Shown piece by piece: positions 6,744 to 64,000 of a stretch of 64,000 bases of DNA. Each line of letters starts with the position of its first letter. Positions within the stretch are counted from its first letter, which is position 1. The DNA comes from Methanofollis formosanus (lineage in GTDB: Archaea > Halobacteriota > Methanomicrobia > Methanomicrobiales > Methanofollaceae), in contig NZ_CP037968.1 of assembly GCF_019633745.1 (NCBI RefSeq), positions 1,804,789 through 1,868,788 of the forward strand, read 5' to 3'. The notes under the pieces were generated by a model. That model was not told the origin of the DNA. It searched no databases and saw only the letters and a list, made by a program, of their open reading frames with translations. Made by a program: the position numbers and the translations under genes.

Positions 6744-6894
6744 CTCGTGTACCTCTCGTCTGTGACATTGGGGCGTACAGAGAGATACTCGTATTGATCT
6801 GGAGTTCTCCGGTGAGAGTGCTGTCGGTGAGGGGATGTGTGATCAGACTGTGAAGACGATCCAGCCTTCCTCGTGATCGCCTCTTTCCCATTCT

Positions 6895-7170
6895 GGTCCT
6901 ATCTTCCGGGGTCCTGACGACAGCACGGCATGATGATCAGGATATGCCGTCCCCCCATTGAAGGATCTTTTTTGTTCTTTCGCGAGAAGATAGGACGGGG
7001 AACGGCATCACGCGTGATCCCGTGAGAATTGATCGGCCATCTCCCGCCCGGGTTCAGTCTTCGGGGTCATGATGACAGGACAGCGTGATGATCAACGGTG
7101 CCGTTCCTCCCATTGAAGGATCTTTTCTGTTCTTTCGCGAGAAGATAGGATGAGGGAAGGCGATGGACCC
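6895..7170 (-). repeat. Family 1 hairpin repeats, two units, minus orientation
   Basis: Unit one has arms at 6945-6955 (TGCCGTCCCCC) and 6997-7007 (GGGGAACGGCA), with one position that is a U-G wobble when read on the minus strand. Unit two (about 7098-7165) has a decayed stem. The loops contain CGCGAGAAGATAGGA, the reverse complement of the loop core seen in plus-strand arrays, and the linker with CTTCGGGGTCATGATGACAG is also inverted. The array lies in a divergent gap, between the starts of the TPR gene and the sensor gene. Confidence 0.75.
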
Positions 7171-14794: not shown

Positions 14795-15250
14795 CATCGT
14801 GCCGCACTCCGCCTATCTCTTCATGCGAGACGGCGGAAAATATGCCGTGATAGAGGGGCGGCACATTCTGAGCACCACAGCCGTCCCGTTGTCATGACCC
14901 CGGAGATAGAACCGGACGGGAGAGAGCACGCCATCCCGTGCCGTCCCCCGTCCTATCTTCTCGCGAAATGACAGAAAAGATTCAGTGATGAGGGGACGGC
15001 TCATTTGGATCGTCACGCTGTTCCGTATTCATGACCCCGGAGATAGAACCCGGACAGAAGATGGCCAACCTCTTCTCAGCAGGATCACGCGCTCCATGCC
15101 GCCCCCGCCCTATCCTCTCGCGAGACGCCGGGAAAGATCAGGTGATAGGGGGGCGGCACGTCCTGATCATCATGCCGTCCTGTCAGCATGACCGCGAGGA
15201 TTGGACCGGGACAGGAAAGAGCAGATCTCTTTCCAGCGGGATCACGCATC
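14795..15250 (+). repeat. Family 1 hairpin repeats, three units
   Basis: Unit 1 has arms GTGCCGC 14799-14805 and GCGGCAC 14858-14864. Unit 2 has arms GTGCCGTCCCC 14938-14948 and GGGGACGGC 14992-15000. Unit 3 has arms TGCCGCCCCC 15097-15106 and GGGGGCGGCA 15149-15158. Loops carry CTATCTTCTCGCGA-type cores, and linkers carry CATGACCCCGGAGATAGAAC. Unit 2 uses a T-A pair where unit 3 uses C-G. The array fills a convergent gap between 14503 and 15331 that has no gene I can support. Confidence 0.8.
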
Positions 15251-19065: not shown

Positions 19066-19079
19066 AGAAATCAAGAGTT

Positions 19080-19387
19080 GGGGACGGGTCCTTGGTCGAC
19101 AATGCGTGCCTGCACTTGCCGGGGCCTCCCTTCTCCACCCCGCACCCCCATGGGCGCCGTACGTTCACGGTAAGTCTGCTCCCTTCCGGGCCTGGACCGG
19201 TTTCCGCGACAACAGGTCTCCGCTCCCTCCGGAGCATCGATCCCTGGCCGTCGACCTCATGGGACAAGGCTTCTCAGTCGGGAAGCACAGGGCGCCTGCA
19301 GATCGCCAAGGCCTTCCTCGGACTTCGCCCTCCGCGTATCGGCGTTTTCGGATGACAGGTGACGCCTAACCACCCGGGCTAGTCCCC
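19080..19387 (-). ncRNA. ffs: Archaeal SRP (7S) RNA
   Basis: The minus-strand transcript, about 308 nt, contains the universally conserved domain IV motif CAGGCCCGGAAGGGAGCAG (in 19172-19196). It begins GGGGACTAGCCCGGGTGG and ends GGACCCGTCCCC, so the 5' and 3' ends pair (GGGGAC with GTCCCC), as in closed archaeal 7S RNAs. GGTTAGGCGTCACC and ATACGCGG near the 5' end also fit the Alu-domain loops of methanogen SRP RNAs. The RNA is the scaffold for SRP19 and SRP54. End coordinates are set by the terminal helix. Confidence 0.9.
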
Positions 19388-19401
19388 ATATGTACTATGG
19401 C

Positions 19402-35514: not shown

Positions 35515-35910
35515 CGGCCCTCGCCGTCCCCTGTCCTATCCTCACGCGAGACGGCAGAAAATATTCGATAATGGAGGAGCGGTATACCCGATCACCACGC
35601 CGCCCCGCTGTCATGACCCCGAGGATAGAACCTGGACGGGAGAGAGCCGATCGCTTCTCAGCGGAGCACACCGCCCCGTGCCGTCCCCCGTCCTATCTTC
35701 TCGCGAGAAGGCAGAACAGACTCAGTGATGGGGGACGGCATGTTTTGATCATGAAGTCGTTCCGCTGCCCTGATCCCGAAGATAGAACCGAGACGGGAGC
35801 AGGCTGATCATTATCCGGGGGGAGCACGCCCTTCTTCGCCGCCCCCGTCCTATCCTCTCGCGAGATGGCAGAACAGACTCAGTGATGGGGGGCGGCACAT
35901 CCGATCATCC
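35515..35910 (+). repeat. Family 1 hairpin repeats, three units
   Basis: Unit 1 (about 35523-35583) has a weakened stem. Unit 2 has arms TGCCGTCCCCC 35679-35689 and GGGGGACGGCA 35730-35740. Unit 3 has arms GCCGCCCCC 35838-35846 and GGGGGCGGC 35888-35896. The loops of units 2 and 3 are almost identical (TCTCGCGAGA core, then GGCAGAACAGACTCAGTGAT), while one stem pair changes from T-A to C-G. The array fills the convergent gap 35346-35937, which holds no gene. Confidence 0.85.
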
Positions 35911-38817: not shown

Positions 38818-38879
38818 GGTCTATAGTATTGCAGGGAGGGAATATAAGACGTGGCTCCTTCCCCATACGGCCGGGGGCG

Positions 38880-39090
38880 AGAAGGGGGTAAAGATTCTGC
38901 AATAGAGGCGACAGATCTGATCATCACGCCTTCTTCCACGCTCACGCCGGTGTCGTGTCACCCCCGACCGTGATCTGTGACAGGGAGATGTCTCTGAAGT
39001 ACGGCCCCGTTCAAAAGATTGCCCCCGCCCCCACCTATCCTCACGCAAGACTGCGGTCAAGGTTCTGCAATGGGGGCGGCCCGTCTGATC
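38880..39090 (+). repeat. Family 1 hairpin repeats, two divergent copies
   Basis: A decayed copy at about 38885-38935 keeps GCAATAGAGGCGACAGATCT and GATCATCACGCC. A second copy has arms CCGCCCCCA (39025-39033) and TGGGGGCGG (39071-39079), a perfect 9-bp stem with a sequence different from most copies. The gap (38818-39192) lies between divergent genes, so the repeat sits in promoter territory. Confidence 0.7.
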
Positions 39091-39160
39091 GAACGTGCCT
39101 CTCCCGCTCGCGACGCACCGGTCCACCCGATCAACGATCGAGGCGGACCTCCGGAGATGG

Positions 39161-39192: not shown

Positions 39193-41274
39193 ATGCTGTC
39201 TGCCGATGACCTTGGGTTCATCACCGAAAAACTGGGCCGCGACCTCACCGATGTGGAGGCCGCGTGCTTCGAGAACCTGTGGAGCGAACACTGTTCGTAC
39301 CGTTCGACCAGGAGCGTTCTCAAGACCCTCCCGACCGAGGGTGAGGACGTCATCCTCGGACCCGGCGACGACGCTGCAGTCGTCCGGTTCTCCGACGACC
39401 TCGCCATCGTCGTCGGGATGGAGAGCCACAATCACCCGAGTTATGTCGATCCGCACGACGGGGCGGCGACCGGGGTGGGCGGGATCGTCCGCGACATCAT
39501 CTCGATGGGCGCCAGGCCCATCGCCCTGATGGACCCGCTGTACTTCGGTTCCCTCGACCAGGAAAAGACGAAGTACCTCTTCGAGCACGTCGTCGGGGGT
39601 ATCGGCGGCTATGGCAACTGTATCGGTGTCCCGGTGGTGCGGGGCGAGACGGTCTTCGACCCCTCGTACCAGGGCAACCCCCTCGTCAACGTCGTCTGTG
39701 TCGGCGTCGTGGACCCCGACCGCTTCCTCACCGCACGGGTGAAAGCGCCCGGGAACCGTCTGGTCCTCTTCGGATCGTCCACCGGCCGGGACGGTCTGGG
39801 CGGGGCCTCGTTTGCCTCTCGCGATCTCTCCGAAGACTCCGAGGCCGCTGAGCGGACGAGCGTCCAGATCGGTGATCCCTATACTGAGAAACTGCTCATC
39901 GAGGCGACCTGCGAGATGGCCGAGACCGGCAAGGTTCTCTCCTGCCGCGACCTCGGGGCCGCCGGGCTTGCCGGGGCCTCATCCGAGATGGCGAGCACCT
40001 TCGGGGCGCGGATCGTCGCAGACAGGGTCCACCTCAGGGAAGAGGGCATGAACGCCGTCGAGATCATGCTCGCCGAGTCCCAGGAACGCATGCTCGTCGA
40101 GGTCGCCCCCGAGGACGTCGCCCTCATGGGGTCGATCGCCGAGAAGTACGACCTGCGCTGGAGCGAGATCGGCGAAGTGATCGCCGAACCGCGCTACATC
40201 GTCGAGTTCGAGGGTGACGTGGTCTGTGACCTGCCGGTCGACCTCCTGGTCGGCGGGACGCCGGCATGCGCCCTGCCCAAGACCCCGAAGACAGTCGACA
40301 CCGCCTATACCCGCCCGGAGGGTGCGCTCAAAGACCTGGCCCTCGCCGTCCTCGCGCACCCCGACGTCGCCTCCAAGGAATGGATCGTCGAGCAGTACGA
40401 TCACCATGTGCAGCTGCGGACCGTCTCCACCGACCACGACGCCGGGGTGCTGCGCCTCGGCGACGCCGCCCTGGTCCTCTCCTGCGGGTGCAACCCGCGC
40501 CAGATCGCCCTGGCACCCTACGAGAACGCCGCCAACGCCGTCTACGAGAACGCTGCAAACCTCGCCTGCCTCGGTGCACGGCCGCTCTGCATCGTGAACT
40601 GCCTCAACTTCGCCAGTCCCCTCCACCCCGAGGTCTACTGGGAGATGGAGCAGAGCGTGCTTGGCCTTGGCGACATGGCCCGCACCCTCGACGCCCCGGT
40701 CGTCGGTGGGAACGTCTCGTTGTACAACGAGAGCGACGAGTTCGGGACCGAGATCAAGCCGACCCCGACGATCGGGATGGTCGGGAAGGGTCCGGTCCGC
40801 CGGTGGACCGCCCCCGAGGCCGGCGACCGCCTCGCCCTCGTCGGGTCGACCGGCGAGCACCTCGGCGGTTCGATCCTGGACGCCGTGACCGGGTGCGGCG
40901 GTGCGGCCCCACCGAAGGCCGACCCGGCCGTGATGGAGCAGGTCAGGGATCTCGTGGCGGCCGACGCCCTCACCGGGGCGACCGACCTCTCGAAGGGCGG
41001 ACTGATCGCCGCCCTGGCCAAACTTGCCCCCGACGCCGCGGTCACGATCGCCGGCGACGACCCGCTGGTCGCCCTCTTCTCAGAGACCTACGGGCGGTTC
41101 CTCGTCGCGTTCAAGGACGAAGCGGCCCTCGAAGGCCTGGAGTACCAGGTCGTCGGTACCGTCGGTGCCAAGGACGACGGCCTGCGCGTGACGGTCGGGG
41201 CCGAGACCTTCGCGCTCTCTCCCGCGGAGATCGAGGAGGCCCGCACCTCGATCACGCGCCTGATGCGCTTCTGA
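39193..41274 (+). CDS. purL: Phosphoribosylformylglycinamidine synthase subunit PurL
   Basis: This 693-residue protein is the small (archaeal/Gram-positive) PurL, the ATP-dependent synthetase of the FGAM step of purine synthesis; PurQ and PurS are not in this window. Landmarks are [20 protein letters not shown] (residues 26-45), [20 protein letters not shown] (about 75-94), [19 protein letters not shown] (about 135-153), [20 protein letters not shown] (about 250-269) and [20 protein letters not shown] (about 453-472). The last 23 bp overlap the convergent flavodoxin gene. Confidence 0.95.
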
Positions 41275-41734
41275 TCACCCGGGCCAGTTCTTCCGGCCCC
41301 TCCCCTTTTTTCAGGTCTTTGACTGAGACATGGAAGGTGCCGGCGACGGTCATCCCGCGCGCCTCCAGGTCTGCCGAGAGTTTTTCCAGGGTGCTGCCAG
41401 GCATGCCGCCGCTCGTCGCAAAAGCCACCGCCCGTTTCCCTTCGCAGTTTTTCAGCGCGGCAACGATCGCGTTCGCGGCGGGCGTCGGGCTCCAGGCCCA
41501 GACCGGCGTCCCGACAACGACGAGATCGTACGCCCCGACGTCGATCCCGGCCGGTTCGATCGCTGCCTTTTCCCCGCGGCGCGCCCGCGGTGCTCCTTGC
41601 AGGTACATCGTCGCCTTCGAGTATCCGGCGAGGTCGCGCACCTCCACCAGGTCGGCCCCGACGATTCCGGCCGCGACCGTTGCGAGCACGCGTGTCTGTC
41701 CGGTTGCCGAGTAAAAGATGATGCAGGTCTTCAT
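41252..41734 (-). CDS. Flavodoxin family protein
   Basis: This 160-residue protein has an N-terminal phosphate-binding loop for [23 protein letters not shown] (residues 4-23), and [20 protein letters not shown] (about 70-89), typical of archaeal flavodoxins of about 160 residues. It carries electrons or acts as a flavin reductase. Its coding region overlaps the 3' end of purL by 23 bp. The start region is clean, but the upstream gap is the large hairpin array. Confidence 0.85.
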
Positions 41735-41784: not shown

Positions 41785-41815
41785 GCGCCGGGGGCGCTGC
41801 CCCCGACCCCCCGGG
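41785..41815 (+). repeat. Family 2 partial copy (inner hairpin)
   Basis: GGGGGC (41790-41795), loop GCT, GCCCCC (41799-41804), followed by GACCCCCCGGGAAGGC, is the inner hairpin and 3' outer arm of family 2 without the 5' arm. Confidence 0.5.
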
Positions 41816-41869
41816 AAGGCCGTGGTGGAGAGCCCGAACACTCTCGTCATACAGGTACAGCAGACATGA

Positions 41870-42870
41870 ACACCACCCCGTACCGTCCCCGGTCTCTCCT
41901 TTCGCGAAACAGCGGAACGGTCCGTGCGATGGGGGGCGGCATGTTCTGATCATCACGCCGTCCCGGTTTCGTGACCCCGAAGATTGGAGCGGAAAGGGGA
42001 AGAACACACCACCCCGTGCCGTCCCCGGTTCTATCTTCTCGCGAAATATCAGAAAAAATTCAGTGATGAGGGGGCGGCACATTTTGATCACGACGCTGTC
42101 CTGGTTTCATGACCCCGAAGATTGGAGCGGACCGGGGAAGAGCACACCACCCCGTGCCGTCCCCCGCACTATCTTTTCGCGAGACGACAGACCAGATTCG
42201 ATGACGAGAGAGTGGCCCTTTCAGATCATCACGCCATCCTGTCGTCATGACCCCGGAGATAGAACCAGGAAAAGGAGGCCTGATCTTTTTTTCAGCGGGA
42301 TCGCGAGCCTCGTGCCGTCCCCTGCACTATCTTCTCGCGAAATATCAGAAAAAATTCAGTGATGAGGGGACGGCACATCCGATCATCGCCCCTGTCCTGT
42401 CCTCACGACCCCGAAGATAGAACCCGGACGGAAGAACGCCGATCGCTTCTCAGCGAGATTACACCAACCTGTGCCGTCCCCCGTCCTATCCTTTCGCGAG
42501 ACGGCAGAACAGACGCGGTGAAGGGGGACGGCACGTTTGGATCATCACGCCGTTCGGTTTTCATGACCCCGAAGATAGAACCGGTACGGGACGAGGTTGA
42601 TCTCTGTCGCCGTTCCCCGTCCTATCTTCTCGCGAAAGAACAGAAAAGATCCTTCAATGGGGGGGAACGGCACCGTTGATCATGACGCTGTCCTGTCCTC
42701 ACGACCCCGAAGATAAAACCTGGACGTGAGAGGGCTGATCCAGTTTCAGCGGGATCACAAACTCTGCCGCCCCGCGCACCATCCTTTCGCGAGACGGCAG
42801 AAATGATCGGCAATAGGGGGACGGCATGTTCTGATCATGACGCCGTCCTGTCGTCGCGACCCCAAAGAGA
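41870..42870 (+). repeat. Family 1 hairpin repeats, tandem array of seven units
   Basis: 5'/3' stem arms: U1 41883-41890/41932-41939, U2 42016-42026/42070-42080, U3 from 42154 (3' arm decayed), U4 42312-42323/42365-42376 (GTGCCGTCCCCT with a perfect 12-bp partner), U5 42471-42482/42523-42534 (perfect 12 bp), U6 42609-42618/42662-42671 (GCCGTTCCCC/GGGGAACGGC), U7 42765-42773/42817-42826 (one C-A mismatch). Unit starts are spaced about 135, 138, 158, 159, 137 and 157 bp, so two linker lengths alternate irregularly. Linkers begin GATCATCACGCCGTCC and contain CATGACCCCGAAGATAGAAC or a GAAGATTGGAGCGG version. The gap 41735-43005 holds no gene I can support. Confidence 0.9.
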
Positions 42871-43005
42871 GAAGTGGGAAGGCCATGTCGGCGACCATGA
42901 AGGGAGGGGTGCCGCCCCCCCGCATAGCTGATTGTCTGGAGGAATTCTCCAGGGCCCGGGCCACAGAGCGTTCCGGGTTATGCTAAAAAAAAGGATGCCG
43001 CCTTA

Positions 43006-44028
43006 CTACTTTTTGAACTGCGGCATCAGCGCCCTGATCTCCGCCCCGACCACCTCGAGGTCGTGCTCCTCGTCGGCGCGGGTCAGCGCCGAGAAGACCG
43101 GACGGTTCACCTGGTTCTCCAGAATCCACTCCTTCGCAAACCGGCCGTCCTGGATCTCTTCGAGCACCTCCTGCATCGCCGCGTAGGTCTCGGGCCCGAT
43201 GACGCGCGGCCCGCGCGTCAGATCGCCGTACCGGGCGGTGTTCGAGACGACCTCGCGCATCGTCGTGAGACCACCCTCGTAGATGAGGTCGACGATCAGT
43301 TTGAGCTCGTGGCAGACCTCCAGGTACGCCATCTCCGGCGCGTACCCGTTGGCGACCAGGGTCTCGAACCCGGCCTTGATCAGCGCCGAACACCCACCGC
43401 AGAGCACCGCCTGCTCACCGAAGAGGTCGGTCTCGGTCTCCTCCCTGAAGGACGTCTCGAAGACCGCCGCCCGCGTCGCCCCGATGCCCTTTGCGTACGC
43501 GAGGGCGACGGCCCTGGCGTCCCCGGAAGCGTCCTGTTCGATGGCGATGAGCGCCGGCACGCCCGCGCCCTCCTCGTACAGCCGCCTGACAAGATGACCC
43601 GGCCCTTTCGGCGCGACCATCACGACGTTCACGTCGGGGGGCGGGACGATCTGCCCGTAGTGGATGTTGAACCCATGAGAGAACATCAGGGTCTTGCCGG
43701 CCGAGAGCCCCGGTCTGATGGCCTCCAGGTACGTCCGCGCCTGGTCCTCGTCGGGGAGGAGGACCTGGACGACGTCGGCCTGCTTTACGGCGTCAGCGAC
43801 CTGAAAGACCTCGATACCGTCTTTGATCGCCTTCTCCCAGCTCTTCCCGGGCCGCACCCCGACGATCACGTCGAGGCCCGAGTCCCTGAGGTTCAGTGCC
43901 TGCCCGCGCCCCTGGGAACCGTAGCCGATGACCGCGATCCGTTTTCCGGCCAGCACGCCCAGGTCGGCGTCTGCGTCATAGTACTTCTCAACCATCTGTA
44001 CCACTCGCTTAGTGCTATCGAAGTCCAT
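43006..44028 (-). CDS. ilvC: Ketol-acid reductoisomerase
   Basis: This 340-residue class I enzyme, the second step of branched-chain amino acid synthesis, rearranges and reduces acetolactate with NADPH. Motifs are [20 protein letters not shown] (about residues 30-49, Rossmann loop), [20 protein letters not shown] (about 134-153), [20 protein letters not shown] (about 194-213, Mg-binding Asp/Glu) and [20 protein letters not shown] (about 251-270). The length is normal. The ATG at 44028 is followed by [20 protein letters not shown]. The upstream region is AT-rich with TAATTTTAG as the likely promoter. Confidence 0.95.
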
Positions 44029-61945: not shown

Positions 61946-61980
61946 TGAACGTGAAGACGGGATACGATCCCCCGCTAATC

Positions 61981-62140
61981 TTCACCGGTGGGGGGTCCGG
62001 GGGGTGAAACCCCCCGGCGCGAGATGACCGGAAAGATTCTGCGATGAGGGCGGCACGCCTGATCACCACGCCTTCCCCCATCTTCTCGCCGGGGGCTCTG
62101 CCCCCGGACCCCCGGGATGAAGATAGGGCCGGGAAGGCAC
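61981..62140 (+). repeat. Family 1 3' half joined to a family 2 unit (copy c)
   Basis: A perfect 9-bp stem CCGGGGGGT (61997-62005)/ACCCCCCGG (62009-62017) is followed by CGCGAGATGACCGGAAAGAT, GATGAGGGCGGCACGCCTGA and TCACCACGCC, the family 1 3' arm and linker. The linker runs straight into family 2 arms GCCTTCCC (62070-62077) and GGGAAGGC (62131-62138), with a second paired layer CCATCTTC/GAAGATAGG. It shows the two families are built into one another. Beyond 62140 to 62320 nothing else is clear. Confidence 0.65.
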
Positions 62141-62736: not shown

Positions 62737-63834
62737 ATGGCGGACGTGCTCAGGGCGGTCGTTGTCGCCGCGCTTCTCGTCGAGATCGCACTCCTGCTGT
62801 TCCTTCTGACCGGAGGTGCGCTCTCGGTTCCGTTTGTTCTCGTCGCCATGCTCGCCGGAGCGGCGCTCTTCGGCGCCGCCTTCCTCCTCCTCAGGCGTCG
62901 GCCCGGCGAGGATCCGTACCGCGATCTCGGGAGCGGCGACCCGAGGGTGCGCTACCTGGCGGCGACGGCCCTCGGGGAGTCGGGCGACGCGGAGGCCGTC
63001 GGGCCCCTGAAAGAAGCCCTCACCGACCCGGACGAAGGGGTGCGGTGGGCGGCGCTGGAGGCCCTCGGGAAGATCGGCACCCCGGCCCTCCCGGTGCTGA
63101 CCGGTCTGCTCGGCGCGGAGGACGTCGACCTGCGGTGGGGGGCGGCGGTGGCCCTCGGGGAGGTCGGCGACGCGGCGGCTGTCGGGCCGCTGGGTGAGGC
63201 CCTCGGCGATCCCGACCGGTACGTGCGGACGCGAGCGGCCCTCGCCCTTGCGGCGATCGGGGCGGCCTCCTGCGACGTCCTCGCCGGCGCGGCCGGGTCG
63301 TCCGACGCGGGTACCAGGTGGGCCGCGGCCCTGGCCCTCGGTCGGATCCCTTCGCCCGCGTGCGTCCCCGCGCTCCGTTCCCTCCTTGCCGATCCGAACT
63401 CCGAGGTGCGGTGGAAGGCGGCCGAGGCCCTGGGGGCGATCGGGAGCGACGAGGCGGTCGCCGCCCTGGTCCCGCTCCTCGCCGACCCCGACCCAGAGGT
63501 GAAGGCCGGGGCCGTCGCCGCCCTCGCCGGGATCGGTGCCGATGCGGCGGCGCCGGTGGTCGAGGGCTTGAAGGTGCGGGACCGGTGGTTCGGTGCGGTG
63601 GACGTGCTCAGGGAGATGGGGAAGGCCGTCGCCGGTCCGGCACTCCGTGCCGCCCTCGGCCGCAAAAGCCCCTGGGTGCGGATCGGGGCGGCGATGGTCC
63701 TCGCCGAGGAAGGCGAGCAGGCCGGGGTCGACGTCCTCTTCGCCGCCCTCGACGATCCCGACCCCGACATCCGCGACGCCGCCAGGCAGACCCTCTCGGC
63801 GGGGCTCAGGCGGGAGGGTGCCGGGGAGGGGTGA
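62737..63834 (+). CDS. Membrane-anchored HEAT-repeat protein
   Basis: This 365-residue protein has two N-terminal helices (VVVAALLVEIALLLFLLTGG, VPFVLVAMLAGAALFGAAFL) and a basic turn RRRPGEDPYRDLG. About nine or ten HEAT/PBS-lyase repeats follow (VRYLAATALGESGDAEAVGP, VRWAALEALGKIGTPALPVL, LRWGAAVALGEVGDAAAVGP and so on to VRIGAAMVLAEEGEQAGVDV). The repeats would lie in the cytoplasm and bind partner proteins. Composition is very Ala/Gly-rich. The ATG 62737 is the first start at the first helix. It resembles the HEAT protein at 60688 but is longer and anchored. Confidence 0.78.
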   Translation: MADVLRAVVVAALLVEIALLLFLLTGGALSVPFVLVAMLAGAALFGAAFLLLRRRPGEDPYRDLGSGDPRVRYLAATALGESGDAEAVGPLKEALTDPDEGVRWAALEALGKIGTPALPVLTGLLGAEDVDLRWGAAVALGEVGDAAAVGPLGEALGDPDRYVRTRAALALAAIGAASCDVLAGAAGSSDAGTRWAAALALGRIPSPACVPALRSLLADPNSEVRWKAAEALGAIGSDEAVAALVPLLADPDPEVKAGAVAALAGIGADAAAPVVEGLKVRDRWFGAVDVLREMGKAVAGPALRAALGRKSPWVRIGAAMVLAEEGEQAGVDVLFAALDDPDPDIRDAARQTLSAGLRREGAGEG

Positions 63835-63845
63835 TGATCAGGACG

Positions 63846-64000
63846 TGCCGCCCTTCATCGCTGAATCTGTTCTGCCATCTCGCGAGAAGATAGGACAGGG
63901 GACAGCATGGAACGCGTGATCCTGCTGAATGATGATTCGCCTCTTTTCCGTCCAGGGTCAATCTTCGGGGTCATGAAAGCGGGACGGCGTGATGATCAAA
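63846..64000 (-). repeat. Family 1 hairpin repeat, minus orientation, cut by the window end
   Basis: GTGCCGCCC (63846-63854) and GGGGACAGCA (about 63898-63907) are the decayed arms, with the loop TCTCGCGAGAAGATAGGACA between them. The inverted linker (TCTTCGGGGTCATGAAAGCG) follows, then the start of the next unit. The array continues beyond 64000. Confidence 0.65.

Follow-up and report, generated by a model that had tools for sequence, protein, structure and literature searches.

Bacterial genomes carry REP and BIME sequences, high-copy intergenic palindromes of alternating orientation and regular spacing that occur in mosaics and may cluster; individual REPs are 20 to 40 bp long, with small loops and mostly a GTAG or CGTC tag (PMC2817692, PMC3733652). 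In Methanomicrobiaceae, repetitive potential G-quadruplex sequences (rPQS) have been described as intergenic inner hairpins composed of a G-run, a short loop, a G-run, and a C-run (Chashchina et al. 2021, PMC8044849). According to that report, about half of these lie tail-to-tail and 11% head-to-head with no strand preference, Methanofollis sp. FWC-SCC2 is one of the carriers, and the motifs (G-quadruplex or triplex) are inferred to act as DNA (PMC8044849). Intrastrand triplex motifs, in which a third run joins a hairpin formed by G-rich and C-rich runs, are intergenic, lack strand bias, and are associated with local instability (PMC4666352). Non-coding tandem repeats that recur at numerous sites of a single genome are known as prokaryotic satellites (Subirana and Messeguer 2019, PMC6749651), and the 2019 survey found genome-spread families of long non-coding repeats only in Leptospira interrogans and Methanocella conradii (PMC6749651).

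Here, we describe a tandem repeat of the methanogenic archaeon Methanofollis formosanus DSM 15483, whose genome of 2,965,921 bp is available as a short-read assembly (PMC9119062). The array from which the analysis departs lies in a 64,000-nucleotide stretch of this genome, referred to below as the window.

The array unit, its copies, and a full-length relative

The array occupies positions 41,876 to 42,882 of the window on the plus strand and consists of seven units arranged head-to-tail, all on one strand. Units 1 (41876 to 42011), 2 (42012 to 42149), and 5 (42467 to 42602) have a short tail, units 3 (42150 to 42307), 4 (42308 to 42466), and 6 (42603 to 42757) have a long tail, and unit 7 (42758 to 42882) is a degenerate end. 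Our analysis confirms the array that the original prediction described from the letters of the window: there are seven same-strand units, the arms given as an example (42312 to 42323 and 42365 to 42376, the outer stem of hairpin 1 in unit 4) are exact complements, core-to-core spacing falls into two classes of 135 to 139 and 153 to 160 bp (units of about 137 or 157 bp), and zero genes are predicted inside the array. A fragment of a full-length dispersed element (41785 to 41825, plus strand), with inner hairpin CGCCGGGGGCGCTGCCCCCG and arm GGGAAGGC, marks the left edge of the array gap. The array adjoins the start of a minus-strand gene at 41252 to 41734 (a codon-usage gene call), which we take from its sequence and general knowledge to be flavodoxin-like, and the end of a second minus-strand gene call at 43006 to 44028, presumably, on the same grounds, ilvC (ketol-acid reductoisomerase).

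In each unit, two hairpin-like halves with loops of about 40 nt are oppositely oriented on either side of a GATCATCACG spacer. The consensus core of about 115 nt comprises a first half (GTGCCGTCCCC, a loop with TATCTTCTCGCGAGA, then GGGGACGGCAC), the spacer TTCTGATCATCACG between the halves, and a second half (CGCCGTCC, a loop with TCATGACCCCGAAGATAGAACC, then GGACGGGA), followed by the tail in its long or short form. Because the second half resembles the reverse complement of the first, the unit is an inverted pair. This second half (arms CCGTCC/GGACGG) had been missed before. Likewise, GATCATCACGCC had been read as opening a linker from one unit to the next, but it is the spacer that separates the hairpin-like halves of a single unit. 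Identity per column averages 80% across units, with 41 columns at 95% or more and 23 columns below 60%; the loop boxes are far better conserved than the remainder of the unit. The short tail is produced by at least three different junction sequences. That different junctions yield recurring tail lengths may be due to helical phasing or simply to deletions having occurred repeatedly between short direct repeats.

The core ATCYTCTCGCGA is present in 240 copies in the genome (reversed control pattern, 0 to 1). Unit 2 served as the query for a genome-wide search, and the 44 arrays with the best matches among the matches listed were taken as genome stretches for analysis. These stretches hold 265 units, in arrays of 2 to 12 units each, and 153 of the 240 cores. 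The copy count per genome that the original prediction had called for therefore comes, by proportion, to about 400 units, a number that may not be exact because the assembly is based on short reads (PMC9119062). At least 60 arrays are spread across the chromosome, between genes; arrays beyond the 44 analyzed, for example near 427, 448, 483, 847, 850, 862, 1028, 1130, 1533, 1733, 1889, 1918, 2082, and 2511 kb were seen by core or BLAST matches only. Unit direction is uniform within nearly every array. Units are about 80% identical within arrays and 75% identical between them, and for 42% of units the nearest neighbor resides in the same array. Among the matches listed, arrays appear to be absent or rare at genome positions 0 to 420 kb and beyond about 2.78 Mb, unlike full-length elements, which are present throughout the genome.

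Within the window, true units were identified in four other gaps: three-unit arrays at 14798 to 15223 and 35521 to 35909 (both plus strand), a two-unit array at 6881 to 7161 (minus strand), and an array at 63822 to 64000 (minus strand) that is cut by the window end. Recurrence in at least seven other gaps, as originally predicted, holds only if diverged relatives of the unit (2868 to 2929, 38877 to 39091, and 62018 to 62076) are counted as well.

A full-length dispersed element at 61967 to 62138 (plus strand) has the spacer CCTGATCACCACG and a pair of inverted hairpins, both of them enclosing a GC-rich inner hairpin. Comparison of this copy and those at L051 and L147 with the unit consensus revealed a common order of arm GCCGYCC, box TATCTTC, box CGCGAGA, arm GGGCGGCACG, spacer GATCAYCACG, box GAAGATAG, and closing arm. 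The array unit is homologous to the full element and corresponds to it without both inner hairpins. Several arrays end in half of a full element, either on the right (for example, at genome positions 825,721, 1,294,090, and 1,494,077) or on the left (for example, at 421,899 and 1,250,346). The inner hairpin GGGGGTCCGGGGG..CCCCC has 279 matches in M. formosanus (reversed controls, 0) and 145, 225, 181, and 100 in four sister species, overlapping matches included. A search of relatives' genomes, which had been suggested earlier, covered 49 genomes from the order's other genera and matched neither the unit model nor a stricter inner-hairpin pattern, CGCCGGGGGCNNNGCCCCCGG. As the full-length form is spread over more species than the array unit, we infer that it is the older of the two.

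Full-length elements also vary in their surroundings and between species. Those at L035, L036, L051, L070, and L085 lie within a larger conserved repeat of about 400 to 600 bp, with ends such as GGCTCTGTAGAATCGGGCATGAACC...CTCAAGCATACG and GGATCATTTTCATGGTAAA, that may be a non-autonomous transposon. In Methanofollis species G006, GGGNGGGTCMGGGAGGG replaces the GGGGGTCCGGGGG motif in 22 places, and some copies are preceded by a CCTATC-type box; the inner hairpin differs by species. We also considered a flanking module common to all arrays and rejected it, as flanks are common to few arrays only.

Gene context and orthologous sites in a sister species

The arrays overlap no predicted genes. Individual gene assignments, made by a simple codon-usage script, may be wrong, but by these calls the 43 array gaps comprise 17 convergent, 24 tandem, and 2 divergent gaps, against 3, 30, and 34, respectively, for control gaps of at least 150 bp from the same stretches (Fisher P = 1.7e-9 for convergent versus divergent, arrays against control). 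In the tandem gaps, arrays are co-directional with the genes in 11 cases and opposed in 13, which indicates no strand preference. At gene 3' ends, arrays would be tolerated or preferred.

We compared array positions with those in the sister species M. aquaemaris BCRC 16166, which has a genome of 2,746,416 bp (PMC9583781). The orthologous gap of the window array measures only 19 bp in this species, and arrays are present in 0 of 16 further orthologous gaps, some of which hold one or two full elements or fragments while others have no match, containing other sequence or nothing. One array is common to both species, with seven units in M. formosanus and three in M. aquaemaris, where it ends in half of a full element. 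The comparison of positions that the original prediction had proposed between strains therefore reveals, between sister species, different occupancy and arrays gained or lost. The two species agree at 83% of third codon positions in ilvC (17% divergence), and unit divergence within arrays, about 20%, is near this value. The arrays may consequently be about as old as the split, so that loss in M. aquaemaris is possible instead of gain in M. formosanus; at single sites, the difference may reflect either event. The comparison makes the birth of an array testable, as orthologous gaps range from empty ones to gaps with a full element or with an array.

Origin of the arrays

We consider it probable, at roughly two chances in three, that a BIME-like intergenic repeat of the Methanofollis genus gave rise to the array as a DNA satellite. 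Among the possibilities raised originally, a selfish element fits best, given that arrays are gained or lost between sister species and are kin to a genus-wide dispersed element, and we infer that the arrays are mainly selfish. The ancestral-type element, still dispersed at numerous sites, would be an inverted pair of halves around GATCATCACG, each enclosing the GC-rich inner hairpin. A form lacking the inner hairpins would have been amplified head to tail in the lineage of M. formosanus. This would have happened at 60 or more sites, several of them within a full-length element already in place, and the arrays probably grew through slippage during replication or through unequal recombination at the hairpins. 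Arrays of this origin would not be strand-specific RNA genes. Dispersal would need a trans-acting enzyme other than a REP-type Y1 transposase encoded in the M. formosanus genome, in which no such transposase (PF01797) was found; PF01797 is present in 6 of 12 species, unrelated to copy number, and we rejected it as the mover for both reasons. A phage or plasmid origin was likewise rejected, as no match was found. Several findings run against the satellite reading: boxes at least 95% conserved stand beside the 23 columns below 60%, which pure satellite drift does not predict; the two classes of tail length arise repeatedly, from no fewer than three junction sequences; no target-site duplication was seen and no enzyme was found; and the unit divergence near that of ilvC allows for loss in M. 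aquaemaris.

The original prediction also raised a docking array for a DNA-binding protein. In such an array, the TCTCGCGA, GATCATCACG, and GACCCCGAAGAT boxes would be putative binding sites on one helix face, with roles in chromosome organization, partition, or transcription end control. This possibility draws on the conservation of box columns (at least 95% against a mean of 80%), on spacings of about 137 and 157 bp that are near 13 and 15 helical turns, on the same short tail arising from at least three different junctions, on the single unit direction of nearly every array, and on the preference for convergent gaps. However, the absence of arrays at 16 orthologous sites of a close relative argues against a conserved site-specific role, there is no candidate protein, and the apparent phasing is inflated by copies related by descent. 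Docking is therefore unlikely, although we keep it as a candidate because the loop boxes are so well conserved. A shade more doubtful is the proposal that the arrays are phased platforms made of a domesticated BIME-like repeat, on which an archaeal protein would bind boxes every 13 or 15 turns and organize the chromosome or insulate convergent genes.

A further alternative is that the repeat is a non-autonomous transposon (MITE) of an ordinary insertion sequence, with the hairpin arms as terminal repeats. The ends of the full element, TGCCGCCC...GGGAAGGCA, are indeed imperfect inverted repeats, occupancy differs between species, and some copies have larger conserved flanks with GGCTCTGTAGAA. 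Yet the window site has no target-site duplication relative to the one empty site examined closely, that of M. aquaemaris, and a search for Y1 transposases, the class covered here, gave no matching enzyme. Tandem arrays are also unusual for MITEs, and we regard such an origin as highly improbable.

The description of a multi-copy, structured, non-coding repeat stands insofar as the units are numerous, hairpin-bearing, and non-coding, but not as an RNA family. Known RNA families were ruled out, as the units have zero Rfam matches. We swapped arms between 172 units and compared the fit of own and foreign partners, a procedure that controls only partly for shared ancestry but in which the other pairings serve as controls of identical ancestry for stem 1. 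Own-partner arms fit better in stem 1, the outer stem of the first half (z = -4.8), where T-A/C-G coupling was found at two variable pairs (P = 2e-5 and 5e-8). Stem 2 is uncoupled (z = 1.9, in the wrong direction), and a second hairpin was rejected by covariation on this basis. A kissing loop or pseudoknot of CTATCTTC with GAAGATAG was also rejected, these sequences being complementary yet uncoupled across units (z = 0.4), and the control pairing of arm 2 with arm 3 is uncoupled (z = 2.9). Covariation is thus limited to stem 1, and one of three pairings is coupled. As a separate observation, the window carries an archaeal SRP RNA (Rfam RF01857) at 19078 to 19389 on the minus strand.

An RNA is expected to favor G.U in the strand that is transcribed. 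Over the eight anchored pairs of stem 1, G.T and A.C intermediates total 47:46, and a strand-specific RNA was rejected on this count; freely extended stems give a looser count of 76:50, in which much of the G.T comes from the outermost GTG/CAT position, beyond the anchored stem, so that the test is not perfectly clean. On the plus strand, the seven window units have unremarkable fold z-scores (mean of about -1), one window unit reaches -4.7 on the minus strand, and units mostly fold no better than shuffles. Zero TATA-like boxes were found in 37.7 kb of array versus 22 expected in shuffles, related units not being independent in this count. The equal intermediates, unremarkable folds, lack of TATA-like boxes, and lack of strand preference disfavor an RNA family and point toward repeats at the DNA level, as BIMEs are in bacteria, instead of genes for RNA. 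A structured RNA family, with each unit transcribed and working as RNA, is accordingly the least probable reading, despite the compensatory changes in the outer stem of hairpin 1.

Comparison with described repeats

In the open-access literature, we found neither the two-hairpin element nor its reduced form nor the arrays described. The nearest known kinds are bacterial REP and BIME elements and intrastrand triplex repeats (PMC2817692, PMC3733652, PMC4666352). The rPQS motif is similar in that the full-length Methanofollis element holds similar hairpins, and the placement of the arrays (17/24/2 convergent/tandem/divergent, orientation 11:13) resembles that published for rPQS (PMC8044849). Compared with the motif described there, which has four G-runs with a C-rich 3' flank, the array unit lacks the inner hairpin and is tandemly amplified; the available part of the rPQS report deals with the motif and the C-rich sequence flanking it, and the two-hairpin element, the reduced form, and the arrays do not feature there (PMC8044849). 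A motif with the FWC-SCC2 loop occurs 22 times in Methanofollis species G006 and once in M. formosanus. Our results link the repetitive G-quadruplex kind of motif published for these methanogens to a larger two-hairpin element. A motif of the intrastrand triplex kind is present in the full-length element but not in the array unit, and the Methanofollis sequences are unlike the E. coli motif (PMC4666352).

With REPs and BIMEs, the units share halves in opposite orientation, about 400 copies, and an intergenic location. They differ in their core of about 115 nt, in loops of about 40 nt with conserved boxes, in the absence of GTAG/CGTC tags, as defined in PMC3733652, at the unit hairpin ends, and in the lack of a Y1 (RAYT-type) transposase in the M. 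formosanus genome. From the satellites surveyed previously, they are set apart by units of 137 to 157 bp that are 75 to 80% alike in about 400 copies. The reduced element has become a satellite that makes up about 2% of an archaeal chromosome, and a genome-wide satellite of this kind is rare in prokaryotes according to the 2019 survey (PMC6749651).
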